A stretch of 26,236 bases of DNA. Source: a virus. Location of the stretch: positions 1 to 26,236 of the IMG/VR virus record IMGVR_UViG_3300045928_000156; one strand, 5' to 3'. Below are positions 11,650 through 26,236 of this stretch, one piece after another; within the stretch, counting starts at the first letter, position 1, and every line of letters starts with the position of its first letter. A program made the translations under genes and the position numbers. A model generated the notes under the pieces. The model did no database searches. It was not told where the DNA came from and saw nothing but the letters and a program-made list of their open reading frames with translations.

Positions 11650-12157
11650 CGTGATGCCTCCGATCGCGGACCACGTAGCCCTCGCGCTGGATCACGTCGT
11701 CCTTGGGCGGCGCCGGGTCGCCGGGGACCTGGATCTTCCGGCCCTCGCGCCACGCCAGGGAATCGTGGAAGTCGTAGGCGGCGGCTTCCGCCCACGTCGA
11801 CACGTCACGGTCCTTGCCCTGCTCCCACGCCTCGTCGGCGGCATCGAGCTTGGCCGCGTAGCGCTCGAACCCGCCGTGCCGGTAGGTGTCGCAGTCCGCG
11901 AGGACCTCGAACACGGGCGCGCCGAGGAGCGACGGGTGGACGAAGAGCACGTTGACGTACCCCTCGCGCCACCCGTCCCAGAGATCCTTCTGCTTGCTGT
12001 GCTTACTCCACGCCGCCGGCCGCTCGCTGACGTACTGCGGGTGCTGCTCGCGCATCTTCCGCTCGATGATCCACATCTGCGTGAACCGACCCCAGCGCAC
12101 CCGCAGCAGGGGGTCGTAGGCGCGCAGGTCCTTGACGAACCCGGACGGCGGCGTCAC
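11642..12157 (-). CDS. Hypothetical protein (171 aa, GTG start)
   Basis: The frame opens with GTG three bases after the preceding TGA. An internal ATG at residue 28 (MWIIERKM) is a possible alternative start. The sequence is rich in Trp, Asp, Arg and Tyr (WRGREG-like clusters, WDGWREGYVN, WSKHSKQKD) and contains a central hydrophobic strand (VNVLFVHPSLLGAPVF). It has the look of a soluble, globular alpha/beta protein. I do not recognise a family. It lies between small head-associated genes. Confidence 0.68.
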   Translation of the reverse strand: MTPPSGFVKDLRAYDPLLRVRWGRFTQMWIIERKMREQHPQYVSERPAAWSKHSKQKDLWDGWREGYVNVLFVHPSLLGAPVFEVLADCDTYRHGGFERYAAKLDAADEAWEQGKDRDVSTWAEAAAYDFHDSLAWREGRKIQVPGDPAPPKDDVIQREGYVVRDRRHHDA

Positions 12158-12160
12158 CGC

Positions 12161-12631
12161 TCACTTGTTCGCCAGGACGGTCACCACTGGCGTATCGGCG
12201 CCGGCCACGCCGGTCGCCCCGCCCGCGGTCGTGGTGGCGCCGAACGTGAGCGCGGTCGAGAAGATCGTGTCGTCGTTGCCCGGCAGGAACAGGAGCGTCA
12301 CGCTCTTGGCCGCCGGCACCTTGAACGCGATATCCGCGCGCGTGGTGCCGAGGGTCACGCCGCCCGAGGCGACGTTGAACACCTGGACGAACGCCGGATT
12401 GGACGCGCCGGTCGGCGACGCCGCGTGAATGGCGTACACGCGCACAGGCCCGGTGCCCCACGGGGTGGACGACACCACCGCCGAGGGCGAGATCACGGTC
12501 AGGGTCAGGGCGTCGGAGAGCTCTTCCAGGTCGCCCGCCCAGCGCTTCATGATCTCCAGCCCGCGCTGCAGGCCATCGCGCTCGTACTGCGCCTTACAAG
12601 CCAGCTGGTACAGCGTCGCGGTGTTGGACAT
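12161..12631 (-). CDS. Hypothetical head-associated beta protein (156 aa)
   Basis: The ATG follows a GGGAGG site by five bases. The first 40 residues are helical (TLYQLACKAQYERDGLQRGLEIM). The rest is beta-rich, Ala/Thr/Gly/Val-heavy (VRVYAIHAASPTGASNPAFV, then KSVTLLFLPGNDDTIF). No family is recognised. Its place two genes after the major capsid gene would fit a head decoration or completion protein, by inference only. Confidence 0.68.
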   Translation of the reverse strand: MSNTATLYQLACKAQYERDGLQRGLEIMKRWAGDLEELSDALTLTVISPSAVVSSTPWGTGPVRVYAIHAASPTGASNPAFVQVFNVASGGVTLGTTRADIAFKVPAAKSVTLLFLPGNDDTIFSTALTFGATTTAGGATGVAGADTPVVTVLANK

Positions 12632-13094: not shown

Positions 13095-14396
13095 CTAGTG
13101 GACGTGCGCCACGACGACAGTCGCGGTGACGCCTTCCAGGCGGAACGAGCTCGCGGGCTTCTCGAACGCCGAGTTGTCCCAGATCCGGTAGAAGGCCTCG
13201 AACGCATCCCTCGCCGCGGAGCCGGTGCCGACGCGGCAGAGGATCGCGCCGTCCTCGTCGGCCCACTCGCCATTGGTCATGACGTAGCGGGTGAGGAAGC
13301 TCTCGTCGATGCCGAAGATCATTCCGTAGGGGGCGTATTTTTCCGCCATGACGGTGATCCCGCCGAAGCTGAGATCCCGCCCCTTGGCCGCGCGGGTGCC
13401 GGCGTCCGGATTCAGGAGCTCCGAGCCGACATAGCGCCGGGCGTCGTTGGTCACCGCCAGGTAGGCGCGTCGCACGCTGTGGTGCATGGCGAGCAGGCTG
13501 ATGTCGCCGTCGCCGAGCTGGTCGGCGAGGTCGATGCCGCGCTGGATCACGTCGGCGGAGAGCGCGCCGACGCCGGTGATCACGTTCGCGCACCACAGCG
13601 GGTAGGTGGTGCGGTTCACGTTGTGCAGGGTCTGGACGTAGGTGCCGTCGTCGATGAGCCCGAGGAGGCCCATCATCTCCTTCTGGTAGCCGGAGTCGCT
13701 GACGTCCGTCGCGCCGGTCGTGTTCACCCGCACGATGTAGTCGTTGTCGGCGACGGCCGCGGCCATCGCGCTATCAACGGTCACGGTCTGGCCGTTCGCC
13801 GCGATGGACTGGATGGTGCGGTTCGCGGACGCGCGCATCGTCCCGGTCGCCGGATCGACGAACGCCACCGCCATCCCGGGATTCAGGAACCGCGCGCCGT
13901 TGGTCGCGCCGGCGATGCCGCCCGGCGCATCGACGGTCACCGTGGTGCCGGTGCCCGGATCGCCGTTCACGAGCGCGAACACGCCGCGCCCGTCGCCCCA
14001 GATCGCGCGCCCGCGCTCTGAGGACATGTCGGTGATGATGCCGCGCATCTCCTGCTCCATCGCCGCGGCGAACGCGTGGCGCTCGCCCTGCGAGGCTTTC
14101 ATCACCTGGGCGGTGAGCAAAACGCGGCCGTACTGATACCGCATCGGGATGCGCGTGTTGGTGTAGCCCTGCTGCTGCGCGGCGGGCAGGTTGCCGTTCT
14201 CCGCCGCCCAGCCGCTCCCCTGGTTGCGGCGCACGTGCACGGGATACGTCACGACGCGGCCGCCCCAGTCGCGCGCTTCCTTCTGCAGGAAGCGATCGAG
14301 CATCTTGACCTTGGTCGGGATGATTTCTCGAATCCCGCCCTCGTAGACGTCCTTCAACACTTCGTCGTAGGCAGTGGTGTCCTGTCCGGCTGGCAT
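13095..14396 (-). CDS. Major capsid protein, HK97 fold with inserted beta domain
   Basis: This is the main shell protein of the head. Residues 8-45 form an N-terminal helical arm, and 46-95 an E-loop-like stretch (VVTYPVHVRRNQGSGWA, then NTRIPMRYQYGRVLLTAQ). Residues 100-135 form the spine helix (HAFAAAMEQEMRGIITDMSS). Residues about 150-226 form a beta-rich insertion (FLNPGMAVAFVDPATG, TIQSIAANGQTVTV), resembling the I-domain of P22-like coats. The A-domain contains MMGLLGLIDDGTY and LLAMHHSVRRAYLAV. Length 433 aa is close to P22 gp5 (430 aa). The scaffold gene lies directly upstream, with four bases between. The ATG follows CCGGGGTAGACCT. Family identity is solid; the exact subtype is inference. 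Confidence 0.92.
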   Translation of the reverse strand: MPAGQDTTAYDEVLKDVYEGGIREIIPTKVKMLDRFLQKEARDWGGRVVTYPVHVRRNQGSGWAAENGNLPAAQQQGYTNTRIPMRYQYGRVLLTAQVMKASQGERHAFAAAMEQEMRGIITDMSSERGRAIWGDGRGVFALVNGDPGTGTTVTVDAPGGIAGATNGARFLNPGMAVAFVDPATGTMRASANRTIQSIAANGQTVTVDSAMAAAVADNDYIVRVNTTGATDVSDSGYQKEMMGLLGLIDDGTYVQTLHNVNRTTYPLWCANVITGVGALSADVIQRGIDLADQLGDGDISLLAMHHSVRRAYLAVTNDARRYVGSELLNPDAGTRAAKGRDLSFGGITVMAEKYAPYGMIFGIDESFLTRYVMTNGEWADEDGAILCRVGTGSAARDAFEAFYRIWDNSAFEKPASSFRLEGVTATVVVAHVH

Positions 14397-14400
14397 AGGT

Positions 14401-15216
14401 CTACCCCGGCATCAACTCCGCGAGCCGCTGCATGGCCTTCTGGTGCAGCCGCTGCTCGAATTGCCGCTCCTGGCCCGGCTCGGGCCGGTCCGGCAACTCG
14501 GCGCCGCGCGCACCTCCGCCACGGAGGGGCGTCGGGAGTCGCTGCATGCGCTGTTTCGTCGTGGAGAGCGCCGCGTGCTGCTGGCGACGCAGGCCCGTGA
14601 GGAACGAGGCGTTCACCTCGTTGAAGGCTTCGGCGATGACGCTGCCGTCCCCGGCCCGGAATCGCGCATCGAGATCGGGGTCCGAGCGAATGACCCCGGC
14701 CACCATCTCCTCGACGTGGCGCAGCGCCCGGGGGTCGGTCGACAACCCGGCCTCCTTGGCGAGCGTCGCGAGCTGCGCCGTGCCGTTCGACACGATGCCC
14801 CGCTGGTGCGCCTGGTGGAGCTGCTGGTAGCCCTGATAGACCTGGGGCAGCACCCGGAGCTGCTCCTGCGCCTGGAGGATGGCGCGCAGCTCGGGATCGG
14901 CCTGCATCAGGGTCTTGAGCGTGCGGGCCGCCTCCAGGACTTCCTGGGTGGGCGGCTCGACGGGCGCACGCTGGGAAGACTCGTAGCGGGCGAGGCGATC
15001 GGTGAGCTGGCGGATGTGGGCCGCGGTCTGCGCCTGGCCGGCGCGGAACTCGCGGTTCTGCGCGATCAGCTGCTGGAACCGGGGATGCTGGTGAAACGGG
15101 ACCTGCGCGTCGGGGTCCGTGTTTTGCGTCGCGGCCGACGTGGGGGACGCGCTGCTGTCGAATGCGGGGGGCGAGCCCGCGCCGCTGTCTGCGGCTACGC
15201 CTTCCATCTCGTCCAT
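14401..15216 (-). CDS. Capsid scaffolding protein-like (271 aa)
   Basis: The sequence has the composition of a scaffold: a disordered Ser/Pro/Ala N-terminus (1-40), then long Gln/Ala/Glu/Arg helices with coiled-coil character (FQQLIAQNREFRAGQAQ, AILQAQEQLRVLPQVYQGY), a helical middle (EEMVAGVIRSDPDLDARFR), and a basic Gln/Arg-rich C-terminal segment (ERQFEQRLHQKAMQRLAELM), where scaffolds usually bind the coat. It is immediately upstream of the major capsid gene and downstream of the portal region, as in P22-type phages. No Ser-His-Asp protease pattern is evident. The start lacks a clear Shine-Dalgarno; the third-codon-downstream ATG (MEGVAAD) is an alternative. The identity rests on position and composition. 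Confidence 0.7.
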   Translation of the reverse strand: MDEMEGVAADSGAGSPPAFDSSASPTSAATQNTDPDAQVPFHQHPRFQQLIAQNREFRAGQAQTAAHIRQLTDRLARYESSQRAPVEPPTQEVLEAARTLKTLMQADPELRAILQAQEQLRVLPQVYQGYQQLHQAHQRGIVSNGTAQLATLAKEAGLSTDPRALRHVEEMVAGVIRSDPDLDARFRAGDGSVIAEAFNEVNASFLTGLRRQQHAALSTTKQRMQRLPTPLRGGGARGAELPDRPEPGQERQFEQRLHQKAMQRLAELMPG

Positions 15217-17170: not shown

Positions 17171-19507
17171 TCACGCCCCCTTCTGCTGGCCCATCTCCTC
17201 GAACTCCCCTTCCATGCGCGCGGGTGAACTCCCGGCGTTCATGGGGTTCTGGTTCGGACGTCCGGGAGCGCCACGACCTGGCGGAGCGCCGGGACGCTGA
17301 GGCGTGCCCCCGCCCCCACCCTGGGCCTGCTGCATGGCCATCATCTGCTCGGCCGAGAGCTGGTCGTGCATGGCCTTGTGGCGCTCGGCCAGCATCTGCA
17401 CCAGCGGGGGCAGGGTCTGGCTGTACTGGCCCTTCAGGAACCGGCCGTGCTCGCGGCTGTGAATGCCGTGATCGTCGACGCTCGGGCGCACGCGCGGGAG
17501 CTGCACGCCCAGGCCGGCGAAGACCTGCACGATCGACTCGTAGTCGAGCATCTGCAGCTCGGCCAGCTCGTCGGGCGCCGCCTGCTGCATCCGCGGGTCC
17601 TGGGCGAGCGCCGCGAAGGCCTCGTCCTCCATGACGGCGTTCTTGGCGTCGAGCGCGAAGGTCTCGACGAACTTCGTGCGCCCGTAGATCTCCAGGATCT
17701 TGAAGCGCTGCTCGGGATCGAGGGGCTGCACGATGCCGAGCGACACCAGCTGCTCGATCTCCGCGCGCTCGGCCATGTTCGTCCTCGGCATGGCGCTGCC
17801 CGCCTCCGGGACGACGTTGACGTGCCCCTCCAGGTCGGCGCCGAGGAACTTCTCGACCTCCCACTGCCCGTCGCGCCCCATGATCTGCAGCAGCCGGGGC
17901 TCGGTGACGTACTCCCGGAAGATGTCGACGGCCTGGGCCCCCCAGGCGGCCCAGGCGCTCTCCCACGTGATGAACAGCGGGGCGAAGCGGCTCTGGCCGC
18001 GTTCGTTCAGGATCTGCAGCGCGATGCCGGCGGACACGCCCTCCGGCCGCGAGCCCTTGATCACGTCGAACGTCGCCGCGAGCTCTTCGAGGTCCTGGTC
18101 GATCTTCTCTAGATAGGAGACGAAGCTGCCGTTGATCGGCTGGCCGGCGACCCGCTCGGGCTTCGCCGGCACCAGGGGCGAGTACCGGATCACCTGGCCC
18201 GGATGCCCGGTGAGCGTCACCACGTTGGCGCCCTCGGGCAGCAGCCAGACGGCATTGCCCATCGACATGCCGGCGAGCTCGATGATCGACTCCCACCGAT
18301 TGCGCTGCGCTTGCTTGAGGGCGACGTCATCGGCGACGGTCTTGCTCCAGCCACTGCCCGGGACGAGCTGCTGCGGGAACCACGTGAACGGCAGGAACGG
18401 CTGCCCGCGCGAGTCGTGATACGGCAGCGGCCCGGCGTGCGCGAGCTGGTGATTCTTGCCGAGGGTGATCGCGAGCAGCCCCTCGGGATACTCCTTGGTC
18501 GGCAGCTGCCAGAACCACGTCTCGGTGATCTTCTTGGCCAGGCCCACCACGCCGTCGGGCTTGCGGGCGCTCTCGCCGAGGTGCGCGCCGAGGGTGGCCA
18601 GCGACTCCTGATAGAAGGCCTCCTGCACGGAGCCCAGCGAGTCGGGCTGCAGGCGCTCGGCGAGCTCGGGCCACCGTTCCTTGGCATGATCCAACGGCAT
18701 CGACTTCTCGCGCAGACACTCGCGCTGTTTCGTCCAGTCGGCGATCGACGGATCGCTGAACATCTCGAAGCACGACACCACGTCGGTGTACATCCGCCCG
18801 ATCGGCACCTGCTGGCCGAGCGGCTGGCCGTCCGGCCCCACGGCGGCCTCGGTGGGCGCCCCGCACGCCGCACACTGCCCGCCCGGCGTCGGCGGCTGCT
18901 GCAAGGCACACGCCGGACAGGCCTGATCGGGGATCAGGCGCGTGCCCCAGCGCGGATCGGGATCGTAGCCCGTCTCGACCCAGGCATCGCCGGTGTGCCC
19001 CACCCACTGCGCGAGGTACTGCCGCTGCATGCGCAGGCCGACCTCGCTCTCGATCACCTCGATCACGCGGCCGGCCACCCGCGCGGCGGCCCGATCATCG
19101 GTGTCGTCGGTCGCCGGCAGGAAGTTCAGGCGCGGCTCGATGCGCGCGAACACGCTGATCACCGCGGCCATGGTCGAGGCGTAGCGGTTGGTCACCGGCA
19201 TCGGCACGGTGGGCGGCAGGACCACGTCGCGATAGCGCGCCTGGCCGCGGTCCCAGCGAATCCACTGCCGCCCGCGCAGGAACAGGAGGTTGCGGTAGGC
19301 CGGACGCAGGCGATTGCTCCGCCCGTGGCTCCACTCCTCGCGCTTGCGCGTGATCAGGTCGACGATGGCCCCGGGGTCGTAGCGGGTCTCCGGCGGCCTC
19401 GGCGGGCCGGGCGGCGCGCCCATCGGGGCGGCCGGCATCCCGGGCGGCGCCATCGCGGACGGCGCGCCCCCCAGGGCGGCCCCGAGCTGGTCTTCACGCA
19501 TCGCCAT
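17171..19507 (-). CDS. Portal protein (P22-like size) with zinc-ribbon insertion (778 aa)
   Basis: The portal forms the ring at the head vertex through which DNA enters. After a Pro/Ala/Gly-rich N-terminal 40 residues comes the usual opening (YRNLLFLRGRQWIRWD, about 71-86), then MPVTNRYASTMAAVISV. Later landmarks include the clip/stem region (QLVPGSGWSKTVADDVALKQAQRNR) quoted here in part as LVPGSGWSKTVADDVALKQA, and the helix PEGVSAGIALQILNERGQSR. Residues 197-215 contain CPAC...CAAC, a zinc-ribbon-type insertion. The C-terminus is Gln/Gly/Pro-rich and probably disordered. Length exceeds P22 gp1 (725 aa). An AGGAG site lies eight bases before the first ATG; the second ATG two codons on is less well placed. 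It lies after the terminase genes, as expected. Confidence 0.9.
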   Translation of the reverse strand: MAMREDQLGAALGGAPSAMAPPGMPAAPMGAPPGPPRPPETRYDPGAIVDLITRKREEWSHGRSNRLRPAYRNLLFLRGRQWIRWDRGQARYRDVVLPPTVPMPVTNRYASTMAAVISVFARIEPRLNFLPATDDTDDRAAARVAGRVIEVIESEVGLRMQRQYLAQWVGHTGDAWVETGYDPDPRWGTRLIPDQACPACALQQPPTPGGQCAACGAPTEAAVGPDGQPLGQQVPIGRMYTDVVSCFEMFSDPSIADWTKQRECLREKSMPLDHAKERWPELAERLQPDSLGSVQEAFYQESLATLGAHLGESARKPDGVVGLAKKITETWFWQLPTKEYPEGLLAITLGKNHQLAHAGPLPYHDSRGQPFLPFTWFPQQLVPGSGWSKTVADDVALKQAQRNRWESIIELAGMSMGNAVWLLPEGANVVTLTGHPGQVIRYSPLVPAKPERVAGQPINGSFVSYLEKIDQDLEELAATFDVIKGSRPEGVSAGIALQILNERGQSRFAPLFITWESAWAAWGAQAVDIFREYVTEPRLLQIMGRDGQWEVEKFLGADLEGHVNVVPEAGSAMPRTNMAERAEIEQLVSLGIVQPLDPEQRFKILEIYGRTKFVETFALDAKNAVMEDEAFAALAQDPRMQQAAPDELAELQMLDYESIVQVFAGLGVQLPRVRPSVDDHGIHSREHGRFLKGQYSQTLPPLVQMLAERHKAMHDQLSAEQMMAMQQAQGGGGGTPQRPGAPPGRGAPGRPNQNPMNAGSSPARMEGEFEEMGQQKGA

Positions 19508-19777: not shown

Positions 19778-19992
19778 GCCGCCGCCCCCACCAGGTCGAC
19801 AGCCCCGCCGTCGCCGCGCGTGCCCCCGCCGCGCATCCGCCGCGGCCGCCGCGGGGCGGACGGCCGCGGCGGGCGGCAGATCGCCACCGGCCCCGTGGCG
19901 CCCGGCGGCCCCGCGACGGCGCGCCGCGGGGGGCCAGGCTCGACGGTCGGCGTGCCCGGCGGCCCCGCGCTCCGCTGGCGACGCGCGCTCAT
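19774..19992 (-). CDS. Pro/Arg/Gly-rich small protein bridging terminase and portal genes (72 aa)
   Basis: The frame begins with an ATG that overlaps the terminase stop as ATGA and ends with a TGA that overlaps the ATG of the 88-residue gene, also as ATGA. It exactly fills the gap between the two. The protein is low complexity and strongly basic (PPGTPTVEPGPPRRAVAGPP, ICRPPRPSAPRRPRRMRGGG) and probably disordered, perhaps DNA-binding. A longer open frame runs upstream inside the terminase gene and is a shadow. Two-sided coupling is the main evidence, since such composition can also arise in non-coding GC-rich frames. Confidence 0.6.
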   Translation of the reverse strand: MSARRQRSAGPPGTPTVEPGPPRRAVAGPPGATGPVAICRPPRPSAPRRPRRMRGGGTRGDGGAVDLVGAAA

Positions 19993-21617
19993 CGCCAGAA
20001 GTCTCCGCGCATCCCGATCGTTTCGGGTGGAGTGTCCGCCGCCGTCGACAGCCGGTGGAGGTCGTAGGCCAGGCGCAGGGCGCCGCGATCGAGGGGCGGG
20101 GCCTTCCGCTCGGCGCGCGTGGCGAGCAGGGCGAGCTCGAAGGCGGCGCGGGCGTCGAGCTCGGGATCCCCGCTCGTCGCCAGGGGCGCGGGCGGGGCCG
20201 GCCGCAGGCGCAGCTGGAACAGATCGACGACGGCGTCGAGGAGGTCGTCGTGCTCGCTCTCCTTGTACGTCCGGAACCGACTGGCCTCTTCGAGGAAGTC
20301 GTCGAGCGCGGGACACTCCGTCGACACCCGGAGATTGCCGTGCTCCCAATGCGGTTGCAGGGCGCGGATCCGGATGTTCTTCTTCTGCCGGGTATCGCGT
20401 TCGAGTTTGGTGATGGGCAATTGATACCCGCGGCGCTCGCCTTCCTGGATGAGCAGCCGCCGGTAGATTTGCGCGAACCCGACCGCTTCGAAGCCGATCA
20501 CCCGCACCCCGGGGATCGCGTCATAGGCGTCATAGATTTCGCGCAGGGTGCGATCCTCCGCCCAGCGCCCGCGGCGCAGGTCGAGGAGCCAGAGGACGCC
20601 GTTGCGATCGAACCCCCCCGTCGCGATGGCGGTGTAATCGGCCCAGGCCTTCGTGCTGATCGCGGGGTCGATGGTCATGGCGATCCAGAGCTGTTCGAGG
20701 CCGCCGGTCTCACTCTCGATCTGGGCGCGCGACTTGAGATAGGGCAGGATCTTGGCGCGGGCGAACACCGCGGTCGAGGCGTCCTCGGGATTGAGGAGCA
20801 TCTGGGCGGCGAACACCTCGGCCCCCATCTCCGTGCGGAGCTCGGTCAGCCGCTCCAAACTGAAGCGCTCGGGAAACGTGGGCACCGTGCGGGCATCGGG
20901 CACGCTGGGCACGGTGCCGTCGGGGTTCTCCCAGCAGGCGATCTTGTAGACGCCCAGGCGCAGCCCCTCCTTCTGCTTCTGCTCCTGCAGATAGCTGTAG
21001 AGATCGGCGGTGGCCCAGGTGGTGCCGACGAGATCGAGGGTGGCGTGCGGTTCGAGCAGGGCGAGGGACTTGCGATACCAGTCCTTGACGCCTTCCAGGC
21101 CGTCGATGGTCTCGGAATTCTCCTTGCCCACCAAATCGTCAAACGTGCCGTGATCGTAGTGCTTACTGGTGAGCTCCCCCGTGATCCCAATCGCTTCGAC
21201 ACTGCATTCCCGGCGCGGCCGCCGCTTGATGGTCAACGCCGTCTTGGTCCACTTCTCCGCCTCCTTGCCGGGATCGTCATAGAGGAGATCGGGAAACGCC
21301 CAGAGGAGCTCGGGGGTTTGCAGCTTGGCCTGGATCTCCCCGAGCATGGCGGCGGCGTTGTCCTCCTTGTTACTGGCGATGAGGATGCGGATGGGCTTGG
21401 CGGGATCGCCTTTGACCCCGTCGTGGAGCAAGCGGCGGATGTTGCGGCCCACGGTGATGACCGACGTCTTGAAGTGCAGGCGCGGGCAGAGGTAGAGGTT
21501 CTTGGCGTAGGGGCTGGTATCGAGAAAGCGGCAGAGCGGCCCGTGAAAGGACGGGGTGAGATCGGTGTAGCCGAGGATGCGCTTGCAGAGGGCATAGGTA
21601 TCGGTCAACGCGAGCAT
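19989..21617 (-). CDS. terL: Terminase large subunit (ATPase and nuclease)
   Basis: This is the motor that packages and cuts phage DNA at the portal. The ATPase domain has a Walker A variant LCPRLHFKTS (K50, T51), Walker B FDDL (D160, D161) and coupling motif GTTW (198-201). The typical QMLLNPED follows at 272-279. The nuclease domain has acidic residues in MTIDP (D318), GFEAVGF (E377) and HDDLLDAV (D457, D458, D461), the RNase-H-like set. Length 542 aa is normal (P22 gp2 is 499). The C-terminal 60 residues are Ala/Pro/Leu-rich. The start at MLALTDTYAL has only a distant AAGG, and no ATG, GTG or TTG occurs in frame back to the TerS stop 47 bases upstream. Confidence 0.95.
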   Translation of the reverse strand: MLALTDTYALCKRILGYTDLTPSFHGPLCRFLDTSPYAKNLYLCPRLHFKTSVITVGRNIRRLLHDGVKGDPAKPIRILIASNKEDNAAAMLGEIQAKLQTPELLWAFPDLLYDDPGKEAEKWTKTALTIKRRPRRECSVEAIGITGELTSKHYDHGTFDDLVGKENSETIDGLEGVKDWYRKSLALLEPHATLDLVGTTWATADLYSYLQEQKQKEGLRLGVYKIACWENPDGTVPSVPDARTVPTFPERFSLERLTELRTEMGAEVFAAQMLLNPEDASTAVFARAKILPYLKSRAQIESETGGLEQLWIAMTIDPAISTKAWADYTAIATGGFDRNGVLWLLDLRRGRWAEDRTLREIYDAYDAIPGVRVIGFEAVGFAQIYRRLLIQEGERRGYQLPITKLERDTRQKKNIRIRALQPHWEHGNLRVSTECPALDDFLEEASRFRTYKESEHDDLLDAVVDLFQLRLRPAPPAPLATSGDPELDARAAFELALLATRAERKAPPLDRGALRLAYDLHRLSTAADTPPETIGMRGDFWR

Positions 21618-21664: not shown

Positions 21665-22174
21665 TCAGGGGGTCGACGGCCGATCCTCCCCCTGGAGCAG
21701 GACGGTGTCCTCGACGTCGTCGTCCTGCGCCTCCTCCGGCTCCGCGACGGGCGGCTCGGGCAGGCGTTCCACGAGGGGCACGCCGGTGGCGAGGGCGAAG
21801 GCGGCGGCGGTTTCCGGGCGGAGATCGCCGAGCATGGCGCGCAGGAGGGTGGCGGCCTCGCCGTGGCTGACCTTGTCCTGGTGCATGGTGAGGCCGAGGG
21901 TGATGTGCTTTTCCAGGTACAGGTGCGGCCGCAGGGCCTTGAGACGCACGATGGGGCCGACGACGTTCTTGGTCTGGGGATGCACGAGGACCTGTTCGAG
22001 GCGATCGGCATAGAGCTCCAGGGCATCCTCGACCTGCTGCCCGAAGCTCGGGTTGCGGGCGAGCTCGTCGAGCACCTGCGTCCTCGTGACCCCGGCGGCG
22101 CGGGCGGCGATCCAGCGACCGCCGACCTCTTCGAGCTCGGCGAGGAAGCGGGGCTGCCAGCCGTTACTCGGCAC
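21665..22174 (-). CDS. Terminase small subunit-like protein (169 aa, GTG start)
   Basis: The N-terminal 60 residues form a helix-turn-helix of the terminase small subunit kind: GGRWIAARAAGVTRTQVLDE, then a NPSFGQQVEDALELYADRLE helix. This matches 'G....Aa..aGv.r.tv...r..dp.F...~.~al'. The middle is helical, for oligomerisation (LYLEKHITLGLTMHQDK), and the C-terminus is acidic (EPEEAQDDDVEDTV), perhaps contacting TerL. P22 gp3 is 162 aa. It lies directly before the large subunit. The start GTG overlaps the previous stop by 11 bases. TerS recognises the packaging site, so the nearby non-coding arrays are candidate targets, an inference. Confidence 0.75.
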   Translation of the reverse strand: MPSNGWQPRFLAELEEVGGRWIAARAAGVTRTQVLDELARNPSFGQQVEDALELYADRLEQVLVHPQTKNVVGPIVRLKALRPHLYLEKHITLGLTMHQDKVSHGEAATLLRAMLGDLRPETAAAFALATGVPLVERLPEPPVAEPEEAQDDDVEDTVLLQGEDRPSTP

Positions 22175-22655
22175 GGGCGGCCCCGATCAACCCCAAGCGT
22201 TCCGCTTCGGCGCGCACGGCCCGGCACCCGAGGCAGGTGCATTTCGGGCCATGGGCGACGACCTGGCCGGCGAGTTCCTGGGGGGCCTCGGTGAACCGAG
22301 CCCTGGCCCGGGCCTCGAAGCGGAGGGCGTTGAGGTCCTCCTCCAGCTGGCGCACGCGCCGTTCGGCGGCGGCGAGGCTCACCTTGAGGCGATCGCAGAC
22401 CTGACAGGGCGGCAGCACGGCCCCCAACGCGACCGCGGGCCGCGTCACGGTGGCCCGGGCCTCCTGGGCGAGGACTCGGAGGGCGGCCTTGGCCTGGGCG
22501 GGTTCCGCCTCGTCCTTGGAGGGCGGGGGCAGGCCGGCGCGCTTGCGCTGCCGCTGCAGGAGGCGCTGGTTGGCGAGGCAGCGGCGGCCCCAGCGCGAAC
22601 TTCCGGCGCGCTCCTCCTCATGGCACTTATTGCAGAGCCGGACGGGGGGCTGCAT
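22164..22655 (-). CDS. Multi-cysteine zinc-finger-like protein, first gene of leftward block (163 aa)
   Basis: The N-terminus has C8-N-K-C11-H with C26 in an Arg-rich context (EERAGSSRWGRRCLANQRLL), resembling the zinc-binding part of HNH-associated phage proteins. A second pair is C84-Q-V-C87, followed by a coiled coil (about 88-120), and the C-terminus has C139-T-C-L-G-C144. There is no HNH His-Asn-His core, so it is not called a nuclease. An ATG eight codons earlier (22679) is an alternative start; neither start has a clear Shine-Dalgarno. It heads the leftward block and may be a regulator or packaging accessory, which is inference. Confidence 0.65.
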   Translation of the reverse strand: MQPPVRLCNKCHEEERAGSSRWGRRCLANQRLLQRQRKRAGLPPPSKDEAEPAQAKAALRVLAQEARATVTRPAVALGAVLPPCQVCDRLKVSLAAAERRVRQLEEDLNALRFEARARARFTEAPQELAGQVVAHGPKCTCLGCRAVRAEAERLGLIGAARAE

Positions 22656-22751
22656 GGCCGGACTGTCGCACGCCCCCATCGGCGAATGCAATCTCTGCGA
22701 TCGGGACCGATCGGCGCGGGCGGCTGTGCCCCGCCTCCCCCTGCCTCTCAG
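22656..22751. promoter_or_regulatory. Divergent intergenic region with operator-like palindrome and heptamer
   Basis: It lies between the leftward block and a rightward small gene. It contains a perfect inverted repeat CGATCGG-GA-CCGATCG (22698-22713) and one GTCGCAC heptamer (22665-22671). Both motifs recur in the 1.9-kb non-coding region to the right. I see no clear -35/-10 pair on either strand, so the promoters may need a phage-encoded factor. Confidence 0.5.
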
Positions 22752-23069: not shown

Positions 23070-23151
23070 AGGCGGTTCTACGCGCTCCCGGGTGGCCTAT
23101 CGGGATGAACTTCAGCACGTAAGTGGCTTATTTCATTGACGTATTCTGAGC

Positions 23152-23202
23152 TATCGGAGAGCATCTATATGTCGCCGGCCTATCCATAGACGCTCTCCGA
23201 TA
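23152..23202. repeat. Inverted repeat, 11-bp perfect arms
   Basis: TATCGGAGAGC (23152-23162) and GCTCTCCGATA (23192-23202) are exact reverse complements around 29 bases containing CTATATG and CTATCCATAG. The arms are long enough for a stable stem with a large loop or for a dimeric protein with distant half-sites. Confidence 0.8.
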
Positions 23203-23243
23203 CCACGTCCTCCCTAACGGCTCTAACGGGGGGTCTCGAGTGT

Positions 23244-23260
23244 GAATCCGAACGGGATTC
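23244..23260. repeat. Inverted repeat GAATCC-N5-GGATTC
   Basis: Perfect 6-bp arms around a 5-base spacer (GAACG). It is operator-like but short, so it could be chance. Confidence 0.5.
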
Positions 23261-23363
23261 GCTGTCCGGCGCACCGGGAAATCCGACGAACCTAGAAAAC
23301 GCCAGGGTTCCGCGGTGGGGCGCCGGTGGGAGAAAGGACGGAATAGCGGGGGGTGTTACCCGG

Positions 23364-23381
23364 CACCGGTTCCACCGGTTC
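23364..23381. repeat. Tandem duplicate of 9 bp (CACCGGTTC)
   Basis: Two direct, adjacent, identical copies lie just before the hairpin at 23391-23418. Confidence 0.8.
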
Positions 23382-23390
23382 CGGAAATGG

Positions 23391-23418
23391 AAGGGGGCCG
23401 GATCGCTCCGACCCCCTT
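23391..23418. terminator. Hairpin, possible bidirectional terminator
   Basis: AAGGGGG-c-CGGA pairs with TCCG-a-CCCCCTT around a TCGC loop, giving 7 bp plus 4 bp with one C-A mismatch in plus-strand RNA and a G-U pair in minus-strand RNA. The T tract after it is short (TTGTGCTGCTT rightward, TTCCATTTCC leftward). It could end transcription from the small rightward gene, or act as a structural element next to the pentamer array. Confidence 0.45.
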
Positions 23419-23430
23419 GTGCTGCTTCCC

Positions 23431-23520
23431 AACCACGCCATACCTCACCAGACCAAGCCGTGCCGTGCCTGACCAAACCGGACCAAGCCGAGCCACACCA
23501 CACCCCGCCTCGCCTCACCG
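23431..23520. repeat. Array of 18 consecutive NRCCN pentamers
   Basis: Cut into fives from 23431, all eighteen units have CC at positions 3 and 4 and a purine at position 2: AACCA CGCCA TACCT CACCA, and so on to CACCG. The outer positions vary, so this is a strict 5-bp phase rather than a simple microsatellite. The complementary strand has GG every five bases. Possible roles are a binding array (one contact each half-turn), a TerS packaging site or an origin element. None is proven. Confidence 0.85.
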
Positions 23521-24016
23521 TGTCACTTCCACTACCCAGGGGAGGGCGTCGACCGCTGGCGAAGCCGATGCTCGCACGGTGCGGAGCTGAAGGGAAAGGG
23601 GAATTTGTAACGAAATTGGTAACTACCGACGAGCCTGCTCTGGTGTCACCGTAACGCGGCGCGGGCTCGCCCCCCGCTCCTGTCGACAGCGCGTCCCCGC
23701 CGGCCGCGGCTGACACCCTGCTCCTGGCAGCACAGTCCCCGGGGTCCCGTCGACTGGCCGCCCTCCTGACCGCTTCGGTTTCTCTCACCCGCCCTGCGGG
23801 TGCCCCACGCTGTGCCTTGTCCTCCTCCCTGACGTGCTCTGGACCCCAGAGAGATACAGCCCCGTGCGACACGTGCGACGTCTCCTCTCCCCACCGGGCG
23901 GATAGAGCGCTGAGCTCGGCGTGCGACACTACTGCAGAGCTCGGCTAGGTTTTCTGAGATGTATCCGGAGCGCAGGGAGGCTCATGCACGCGCCACTCGG
24001 AAGGAGGTACGGACCT

Positions 24017-24031
24017 CGATCGGTCCGATCG
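24017..24031. promoter_or_regulatory. Operator-like palindrome CGATCGG-T-CCGATCG
   Basis: Perfect 7-bp arms around one base. The same arms with a 2-base spacer occur at 22698-22713, and a half-site (CCGATCG) lies at 24083-24089. It is a candidate binding site for a dimeric regulator. Confidence 0.55.
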
Positions 24032-24174
24032 GGATTGCCTACCCGGCCATCGGCCGTGCCTATACGGTGACGAGAGGTCAGTCCGATCGTTGTATCGGCG
24101 TTCAGTGGCGCGGCTGAAAGCCTCCTGGCCCCTGAAACTGCCCGGGATCTACCGCTGGTAGACGCCGCCAGCGC

Positions 24175-24192
24175 GCACACTACAGGGTGTGC
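24175..24192. repeat. Inverted repeat GCACAC-N6-GTGTGC
   Basis: Perfect 6-bp arms end seven bases before the TTGACA at 24200. It may be an operator or activator site for that promoter. Confidence 0.5.
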
Positions 24193-24199
24193 TAAACCC

Positions 24200-24228
24200 T
24201 TGACATAATAGCGATTATCAGCTGTAGC
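24200..24228 (+). promoter_or_regulatory. Candidate rightward promoter in an A/T island
   Basis: A perfect TTGACA (24200-24205) is followed after 17 bases by TGTAGC (24223-24228), a weak -10. The spacer contains an ATAAT-AGCG-ATTAT inverted repeat (24205-24218). A 12-bp perfect palindrome, TAGCGGCCGCTA (24225-24236), covers the -10/+1 side. No gene starts soon after, so it would give a long leader or a small RNA. Confidence 0.4.
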
Positions 24229-24236
24229 GGCCGCTA
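24225..24236. repeat. 12-bp perfect palindrome TAGCGGCCGCTA
   Basis: A perfect palindrome overlapping the candidate promoter start region, possibly an operator. GC-rich sequence makes chance palindromes less rare here. Confidence 0.6.
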
Positions 24237-24480
24237 GCCCCCTCTTTTCAGGTACTTGCGCTGCAGTGGTCGCACGCGCCGGTGTCGTCGCGTTGCACCC
24301 TGCGACCAGGCGCCGCACGCTGGCGGCCGCCCGCGGCGGCTTTCCTGGCCAGGGTTCAGTCGCGGCGGCCGCGACACCGGCAAGCACCTTCTGCACCTTC
24401 TCGCGGCGCTCGCCGCTCCGGACGTCGCACGGCGGATCGTCCGGACAGCTCCGGTGCCGTGCCTGCCGTGCGACACCAGG

Positions 24481-24546
24481 AGGCTCGTACAGGCGTCCTA
24501 TGAGCCTTCAGAGAGCGCACCATGGGGGGCAGCCGCAGAGCGGCTG
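24481..24546. repeat. Two adjacent stem-loops
   Basis: AGGCTC/GAGCCT (24481-24486 and 24502-24507) form a 6-bp stem with 15-nt loop. CAGCCGC-AGA-GCGGCTG (24530-24546) is a 7-bp perfect stem with a 3-nt loop. They are a sign that any RNA made here is structured. Confidence 0.5.
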
Positions 24547-24739
24547 AATTGGGGCGCCGCGGCGCGCTGGCGAGCCGTCTGCTTTCGCCCCCCGGCGCGT
24601 CGTCGCACCGTCGGTAGTCGCACGGGCAGCGCGGCGCCAGGCGTGCGACCAGGCCGAGGCGCGTCCCAGGGAGTGCGTCGCAACCTATTGATCTTGCGCG
24701 AAACATGCTCCGCGTTCCAAAGGTGTCGTCATCGGCCCT

Positions 24740-24764
24740 GAAACGCTGTTACTGCCTGCGTTTC
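24740..24764. repeat. Inverted repeat GAAACGC-N11-GCGTTTC
   Basis: Perfect 7-bp arms 20 bases before a cluster of heptamers (24784, 24799, 24811). It is a possible operator or hairpin. Confidence 0.55.
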
Positions 24765-24885
24765 CAACGCGTTACGCGACACCGTGCGACGTCCCCTGGT
24801 CGCACGGCTGGTCGCACGATCGTCACCTGAGATGATCCCGCGCGTGCGACGTAACCCCGCGTCACGACAGGCCAAAAAAATTCAG

Positions 24886-24916
24886 TTGACCTGATCCCAA
24901 GCGTTTCGGGTAGTGT
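24886..24916 (+). promoter_or_regulatory. Candidate promoter for the DUF932 transcript
   Basis: TTGACC (24886-24891) is followed by TAGTGT (24911-24916) after 19 bases, a weak TANNNT -10. A run of seven A and an A/T-rich stretch (24874-24884) precede it, like an UP element. Heptamer copies flank it at 24844 and 24940, which suggests control by whatever binds them. Confidence 0.4.
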
Positions 24917-24991
24917 GAGGGGTAGCACGGTATGGGACCGTGCGACGCAGGAGAGGCGCCGGCCAGAGCGGCCGGCCAGGAGGATCGATCA

Positions 24992-26053
24992 ATGGCGCAC
25001 CGACTCAGTATCCGCAACGGCAAGGTAGAGATGGCCTACACCGGGCAGACCCCGTGGCATGGCCTCGGCGAGAAGGTCGACCACTTCCAGACGGTCGCGG
25101 AGGCCTTCGCGCGCACCCTGCCGTGGACGGTCAGCCTCCGCGAGATCAGCTACGCCGGGTACGCCGGGGGCATGATCCCCAGCAAGGCCAATACCCGGAT
25201 CATCGCCCGCGACGACGACGACACCCAGCTGGGCGTCGCCACGGTGAGCTACATGCCCGTCCAGAACGCGCAGGCCGGCGAGATCGTCGAGGCCCTAGTG
25301 GCCGAAGGCGCGCAGTGTATCGAGACGATCGGCGCCCTGGACGACGGCGCCCGGTGCTTTACCCTCGTGAACCTCGACAAAACGGGATTCGAGGCCCGTC
25401 CTGGCGACACCGTCAAGCCCTACTTCGTCCTGGCCTGGGGCCACGACGGTCGCCACCCCGTGGCCGGCGACCTGACCACGGTCCGCGTGGTCTGCCACAA
25501 CACGCTCACGGCCGCGGGGTTCGGCGATAGCGGCGCCTGGCGCAAGCCCATCCACTTCAAGCACACCGCCAGCGCGAAGCTCCGCCTCGACGAAGCGCGC
25601 GAGGCCCTCAAGCTCGCCCGCAAGGCCCTGGCCACGACCCGCGAGCAGTACAGCACCCTCGCGGCCGCCCGGATCGCCCCGCAGGCCGCCCTCGACTACT
25701 TCGGCCAGGCCTTCCAGGCTCCCGTCCAGGGCACGTCGCTGCAGTTCACCGGCGACAGCCGGATCACGCTGATCGCCCCGAAGGACGCCGACCAGAAGGT
25801 CGTCGAGGCCATCGACAAGTGGGAGGCCGTCCAGCGTCGCCTGGTCAGCCTCTACGCGGGCGAGGGCAAGGGCGCCAACATCGCCGGCCCCACGGCCTGG
25901 GGCGCCTACAACGCCATCACGGAGTACCTCGACCACGTCTACCCCGTCACCAGCAACGGCACGGTGTCCACGGTGCGCCAACAGTCGGTGCTCTTCGGCA
26001 CGTACGCCGACGTCCGGACGTCCGCGTACGACGCGGCCCTGGCCCTGGTCTAG
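24992..26053 (+). CDS. DUF932 (TIGR03299-type) phage/plasmid protein (353 aa)
   Basis: This matches the DUF932 family, found in phages and plasmids and of unknown biochemical function, often near replication and recombination genes. Marks seen are GQTPWHGLG (residues 18-26), LREISYAGYAGGMIP, NTRIIARDDDDTQLGVATVS, a central LVNLDKTGFEARPGDTVKPY, VVCHNTLTAA, and the C-terminal helical half (LDEAREALKLARKALATTRE; DKWEAVQRRLVSLYAGEG). Length is normal for the family. The start is fixed by AGGAGG eight bases ahead, although the frame is open 20 codons earlier. It is the first gene of a rightward unit opposite in direction to the virion genes, which suggests early expression. Confidence 0.9.
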   Translation: MAHRLSIRNGKVEMAYTGQTPWHGLGEKVDHFQTVAEAFARTLPWTVSLREISYAGYAGGMIPSKANTRIIARDDDDTQLGVATVSYMPVQNAQAGEIVEALVAEGAQCIETIGALDDGARCFTLVNLDKTGFEARPGDTVKPYFVLAWGHDGRHPVAGDLTTVRVVCHNTLTAAGFGDSGAWRKPIHFKHTASAKLRLDEAREALKLARKALATTREQYSTLAAARIAPQAALDYFGQAFQAPVQGTSLQFTGDSRITLIAPKDADQKVVEAIDKWEAVQRRLVSLYAGEGKGANIAGPTAWGAYNAITEYLDHVYPVTSNGTVSTVRQQSVLFGTYADVRTSAYDAALALV

Positions 26054-26130: not shown

Positions 26131-26146
26131 TAGACCAATCGCAGAT

Positions 26147-26165
26147 GCCAGGCAGCGTGCCTGGC
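26147..26165 (+). promoter_or_regulatory. Hairpin or operator directly before a ribosome binding site
   Basis: GCCAGGCA-GCG-TGCCTGGC is a perfect 8-bp inverted repeat with a 3-base centre. It ends one base before the AGGAGG (26167-26172) of the next gene. As RNA it could control access to the site; as DNA it could be an operator. Confidence 0.55.
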
Positions 26166-26180
26166 CAGGAGGGGAGCGAG

Positions 26181-26236
26181 ATGATCGAGTGCACCGTCAA
26201 GGGCAACAGGTTCCAGGCCGCCAGGGCGGCCGCCGA
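26181..26236 (+). CDS. Start of a rightward gene, cut by the window edge
   Basis: AGGAGG stands eight bases before an ATG, the same spacing as for the DUF932 gene. Eighteen codons are present (M-I-E-C-T-V-K-G-N-R-F-Q-A-A-R-A-A-A) with no stop. The peptide looks real (short strand, then Ala-rich helix), but the family cannot be called from so little. It is likely co-transcribed with DUF932. Confidence 0.7.
   Translation, partial: MIECTVKGNRFQAARAAA

Follow-up and report, generated by a model that had tools for sequence, protein, structure and literature searches.

Stoperators of cluster A mycobacteriophages are numerous, near-identical, asymmetric sites of approximately 13 bp that are dispersed over the genome. 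In iteron origins of actinobacterial theta plasmids, a non-coding stretch carries repeated copies of a 7-8-bp word in either orientation; in the Streptomyces plasmid pWTY27, 8-bp GTGGGAAC and 7-bp TTCCCAC repeats (10 copies in a 300-bp origin beside repA/repB) are bound by RepA, and this binding is proven (PMC3583192). dif/Xer sites, including those exploited by IMEX phages, have a 28-bp core with two 11-bp arms and a 6-bp centre and occur once per genome (PMC3025954, PMC2731167, PMC4246890), and in the literature searched the phages described as using dif are filamentous, microviral, or tailless. Exact non-palindromic 8-mers are recognized by FtsK (KOPS; PMC2680272) and by TraB of Streptomyces (TRS; PMC4170104). 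Here we describe a phage locus in which a cluster of octamer boxes surrounds a dif-like site.

The window analyzed is the whole 26,236-bp uncultivated virus record IMGVR_UViG_3300045928_000156, a fragment of a phage genome. Two more contigs belong to the same phage (99.4-99.98% identity), adding 8.4 kb on the left and approximately 0.5 kb on the right, and approximately 35 kb of the phage was read overall. Approximately 12 kb of the genome, probably including replication genes, is absent from all contigs found, and a search for an extending contig gave none further. The same-phage contigs differ from the window at two places: the overlapping contig has 21 codons (63 bp) fewer in gene 724-2448, where short tandem repeats occur at 2156-2234, and at 26141-26236 the second contig contains approximately 250 bp extra with a small gene, bounded by the repeated leader CCTGGCCAGGAGGGGAGCGAGATG. 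Since the leftward genes encode a terminase, a P22-like portal, a major head protein, and an SU10-type adaptor, we infer a tailed phage whose gene set is podovirus-like. The features that frame the locus are as follows.

17171 to 19507, minus strand: P22-like portal protein gene, late block (PF16510, E 7.9e-11; phrog_156)
19989 to 21617, minus strand: terminase large subunit gene, late block (phrog_38, E 2.3e-72)
23070 to 24991, no strand: non-coding divergent region of approximately 1.9 kb, from the leftward late block to the rightward DUF932 gene (codon model)
24992 to 26053, plus strand: first rightward gene, DUF932 / phage-plasmid-like protein TIGR03299 (PF06067, E 2.9e-37; phrog_1221; TIGR03299 above cut-off)

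A codon model trained on this phage predicted no gene above threshold within 23070-24991, and neither a tRNA nor an Rfam family was detected there. The region also contains an imperfect 17-bp inverted repeat with a 17-bp loop (23152-23202), a pentamer-periodic tract of three varied bases followed by CC (23437-23514), and a repeat (23656-23708) that is approximately 80% identical to a spot in the late block (15130-15185). A cluster of boxes, located by exact count, lies entirely within the non-coding stretch.

23863 to 23870, plus strand: box 1, CGTGCGAC
23872 to 23879, plus strand: box 2, CGTGCGAC
23920 to 23927, plus strand: box 3, CGTGCGAC
24269 to 24276, minus strand: box 4, CGTGCGAC
24424 to 24431, minus strand: box 5, CGTGCGAC
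24467 to 24474, plus strand: box 6, CGTGCGAC
24602 to 24609, minus strand: box 7, GGTGCGAC, without the preceding C
24617 to 24624, minus strand: box 8, CGTGCGAC
24642 to 24649, plus strand: box 9, CGTGCGAC
24783 to 24790, plus strand: box 10, CGTGCGAC
24799 to 24806, minus strand: box 11, CGTGCGAC
24811 to 24818, minus strand: box 12, CGTGCGAC
24843 to 24850, plus strand: box 13, CGTGCGAC
24939 to 24946, plus strand: box 14, CGTGCGAC, just upstream of the DUF932 gene

The original prediction, made from the letters of the window, had reported 14 copies of the heptamer GTGCGAC in 23864-24946, and exact counting agrees, with eight copies on the plus strand (23864, 23873, 23921, 24468, 24643, 24784, 24844, and 24940) and six on the minus strand (24269, 24424, 24602, 24617, 24799, and 24811). 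As also reported, C precedes the heptamer in 13 of the 14 copies, forming the octamer CGTGCGAC, with the copy at 24602 as the exception. The rough estimate of less than one copy by chance holds as well: Markov models of orders 1-3, for which either the window or the intergenic stretch served as training sequence, give 0.30-0.86 heptamers and 0.10-0.28 octamers in 1083 bp, and the maximum in 400 simulations per model was four heptamers and three octamers. When the whole non-coding stretch was simulated, any 7-mer reached 14 copies in none of 200 order-2 and one of 200 order-1 simulations. Beyond the cluster the window contains two copies, the number noticed in the earlier reading (13469 and 22665, both on the minus strand). 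A count over the remaining 31.5 kb read from the phage (window 1-23069 plus the 8.4 kb of the overlapping contig) found four heptamers and two octamers, and the heptamer is therefore not common throughout the phage.

We found that the strong information is confined to the octamer, with flanks near background save for a mild depletion of G at the second position beyond it. Copies with one mismatch beyond the 14 sites occur at background (4 versus 3.1 expected) and those with two mismatches somewhat below it (14 versus 27.9 expected). These counts indicate that the boxes are all-or-nothing, that is, strictly recognized and without decaying sites. Box spacing is irregular (9-348 bp) and shows no helical phasing. 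Compared with pWTY27, the 14 copies are spread more widely, over 1.1 kb, and the contigs read revealed no rep gene. Like stoperators the boxes are many, near-identical, and asymmetric, but they are 8 bp long and all lie in one stretch, whereas stoperators are scattered through short intergenic gaps across the genome. Nor do they resemble the palindromes of parS, since CGTGCGAC is asymmetric and its pairs have no fixed inverted spacing.

The largest gap in the cluster (348-bp, 23928-24268, between boxes 3 and 4) is occupied by a feature that the original prediction had missed.

24198 to 24225, minus strand: dif-like Xer site, ACAGCTGATAA-TCGCTA-TTATGTCAAGG (matrix of 18 published dif sites)

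The matrix was built from sites in PMC3025954 and PMC2731167, and the site scores 17.9 bits against 1.2 for the runner-up in the window. It has 11-bp XerC-like and XerD-like arms, an inner palindrome, and a centre within the 6-8-bp range of dif sites. The pattern GATAATN4ATTATGT occurs once in the window, with 0.00 expected, and the dif-like core is unique both here and in the 47-kb relative described below. In contrast to the dif users described so far, the window phage has tailed-phage terminase, portal, and head genes. Such a site offers a handle on the host, and on whether phages of this type are maintained as plasmids or become integrated at dif. Among sampled genomes, 296 from one phylum, 95 from a second, and 11 others, none contained the exact dif-like 24-mer (3 mismatches), a portal homologue was not found in 149 genomes, and a search of plasmids gave no match.

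We compared the region with two relatives, one of them truncated at the dif-like site. One relative (L044-L046), whose portal is 85% identical, is represented by a 47,103-bp contig with ends that nearly meet on the map of the window; it is therefore nearly complete, and circularly permuted or circular. A dif-like site, GCGTCCGATAA-TAACCAA-TTATGTAAGGA, lies in its matching divergent region and scores 24.9 with free centre length. None of 150 shuffles reached the score of either site, while a first, smaller set (six shuffles each) gave single values of 20.0 and 23.2, and the per-genome margin is not to be over-read. In the 48% relative the contig end falls within CTTCCGATAATAGGCAGTATGTCAA in the matching region, cutting its dif-like site. 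Bacterial genomes of 1-10 Mb contain the dif-like core zero or one time, rarely twice, and its chance presence in the same stretch of three related phages is therefore very unlikely.

None of the relatives has a GTGCGAC cluster in the matching region. The matching stretch of the 47-kb relative (32719-34310) contains instead a 17-bp unit repeated six to seven times and a perfect 38-bp unit in approximately four tandem copies plus a further copy (L045:13159-13355 and L045:13699-13927). Since the dif-like site is accompanied there by unrelated repeats, what is conserved is the non-coding place with its dif-like site and repeats, not the repeats themselves. This suggests rapid change of the box word and of the protein that reads it, with the role of the site staying constant. 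A CGTTACG array in relative G4, considered as a counterpart, lies within coding sequence and was rejected. In the 48% relative, a CGTTACGG array (L048, approximately 14,275-14,470) falls inside a gene that probably encodes a zinc-ribbon protein. The 47,103-bp relative also contains the octamer TGGGAGAA 31 times (0.8 expected); the copies lie on either strand, within genes as well as between them, and most follow a C or G. This octamer is perhaps Chi-like.

We tentatively favor, as quite possible, the reading that the non-coding stretch is a plasmid-like replication or maintenance region, in which the octamers are bound by an initiator-type protein of the phage and the dif-like site serves Xer recombinases. 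The 14 iteron-like octamers would be bound by a single sequence-specific DNA-binding protein of the phage. This would most likely be the replication initiator, which would assemble on the array and start replication there; Xer-type recombinases would use the dif-like site for resolution of genome multimers or for integration at the host dif. The boxes are a multi-copy short word in non-coding DNA with virtually no copies elsewhere, as in iteron origins, and the original suggestion of iterons or regulator boxes thus named the right class of explanation, given sites that are exact, non-coding, in both orientations, and free of background elsewhere. That the cluster surrounds a dif-like site, a kind of site present also in the matching region of both relatives, points to replicon maintenance rather than plain transcription control. 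The 38-bp and 17-bp arrays of the 47-kb relative are iteron-like, and this relative codes elsewhere for a DnaB helicase and an XerC/D-like recombinase with a SAM-like N-terminal domain (below equivalog cut-offs). A similar layout is found in a 123.8-kb phage contig (L162), where eight recognizable origin boxes in both orientations lie in non-coding DNA approximately 150 bp from a dif-like site, with rIIA/rIIB genes nearby. The L162 boxes are likewise exact but of the DnaA type (TATCCACA), are more tightly packed (approximately 125 bp), and have no sequence relation to those of the window; the origin in L162 is itself putative. Its stretch at approximately 11,900-12,370 (dif-like site at 11743-11763) also holds six CGGACTAT repeats and several CACGCCGA words.

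Several observations weigh against an origin. No initiator gene was seen near the boxes, the DUF932 neighbor is without a known role, and approximately 12 kb of the genome is missing. No DnaA box was found in the region at one mismatch, and there is no strong AT-rich tract by the boxes, the best 60-bp windows being approximately 47-50% AT. DnaA boxes and an AT-rich melting region are not a requirement of all phage origins. The array, at 1.1 kb with irregular spacing, is longer than classic iteron origins, and a 1.2-kb-window scan of the fetched flanks of three relatives with 47% identical terminases revealed no comparable octamer array. If the origin reading is true, a group of tailed phages not yet described would have its origin and its site for multimer resolution or integration together in one short stretch, and the box word is simple enough for footprinting tests.

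A second reading, which we consider rather unlikely, is that the octamers are operators through which a phage regulator (repressor or activator) acts on one or more early promoters of the divergent region. The first rightward gene directly follows the cluster, its start lying a few tens of bases beyond box 14, and the phage has elsewhere a small HTH-like gene without a Pfam match. A promoter-like TTGACC...TAGTGT pair was spotted by eye at 24885-24920, but a promoter scan gave no sigma-70-type promoter. Fourteen sites over 1.1 kb far exceed the needs of a promoter, and other gene starts are without boxes. Operator sets usually include degenerate copies, whereas one-mismatch copies of the boxes are at background. 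The original prediction went further and proposed boxes shared by early and late control, for which we find no support: 0.84-1.2 kb separate the first gene of the late block from the nearest box, and the copy near the late start (22665), which had been placed in the divergent region, sits within a predicted gene (22164-22679).

It is unlikely, in our judgment, that the octamers are loading sites of a partition or translocation protein, either as a centromere or as FtsK/TraB-type boxes that drive or activate Xer recombination. The more specific proposal that they work with the phage dif site, as translocase or partition loading boxes in a compact FtsK/Xer-like segregation locus of a tailed phage, is quite improbable. 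The boxes share with KOPS and TRS the form of exact asymmetric octamers, the array encloses the dif-like site, and the boxes nearest to it aim at it (three on the left and two on the right). KOPS are polar towards dif, but only nine of all 14 boxes point to the dif-like site (P = 0.21), and such polarity was rejected; neither a translocase nor a ParA/B gene was seen among the genes scanned. Among 27 other dif-bearing viral loci, an 8-mer in eight copies occurs nearby only in L162, where it is the DnaA box, and the others have at most five copies.

It is very improbable that the dif-like site is the core of a phage attachment region in which the octamers act as arm or accessory sites. Pairs of CGTGCGAC with 10-bp spacing do adjoin a tyrosine integrase gene in alphaproteobacterial genomes (L118, L126, L140, L149, and L054), but their distance from that gene ranges from some tens of bases to 0.65 kb, whereas the array here spans 1.1 kb. 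No integrase as at a lambda-type attP was seen beside the cluster or anywhere in the 35 kb of phage read, and the recombinase of the 47-kb relative is of the XerC/D-like kind with a SAM-like N-terminal domain, which is not known to need arm sites.

We also asked where else the octamer clusters. A literature text search for CGTGCGAC gave nothing relevant. IMG/VR was scanned for three copies of CGTGCGAC, with an octamer in which A and T are swapped as the control. Clusters were found within winged-helix/O-type genes (L056 and L091, probably also L055 and L090), adjoining AAA_25 helicase genes (L058 and L092/L098), and after a probable helicase gene (L057), and many other matches are coding tandem repeats. 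The control octamer yielded seven loci in the same arrangement, compared with approximately six independent lineages for CGTGCGAC; because it clusters as often, CGTGCGAC itself is not a signal shared across phages. The CGTGCGAC clusters beside replication or integrase genes are evidence that a cluster of this sort can mark an origin or an att site, but they say nothing about whether the one in the window does. In the alphaproteobacterial genomes or prophages named above, the clusters, often with 10-bp spacing, lie beside one tyrosine integrase family and are possibly arm sites. Among further loci (L119, L128, L132, L136, L142, and L145), intergenic CGTGCGAC clusters occur on at least six contigs of one Geobacteraceae MAG, and an Azospirillum has three.
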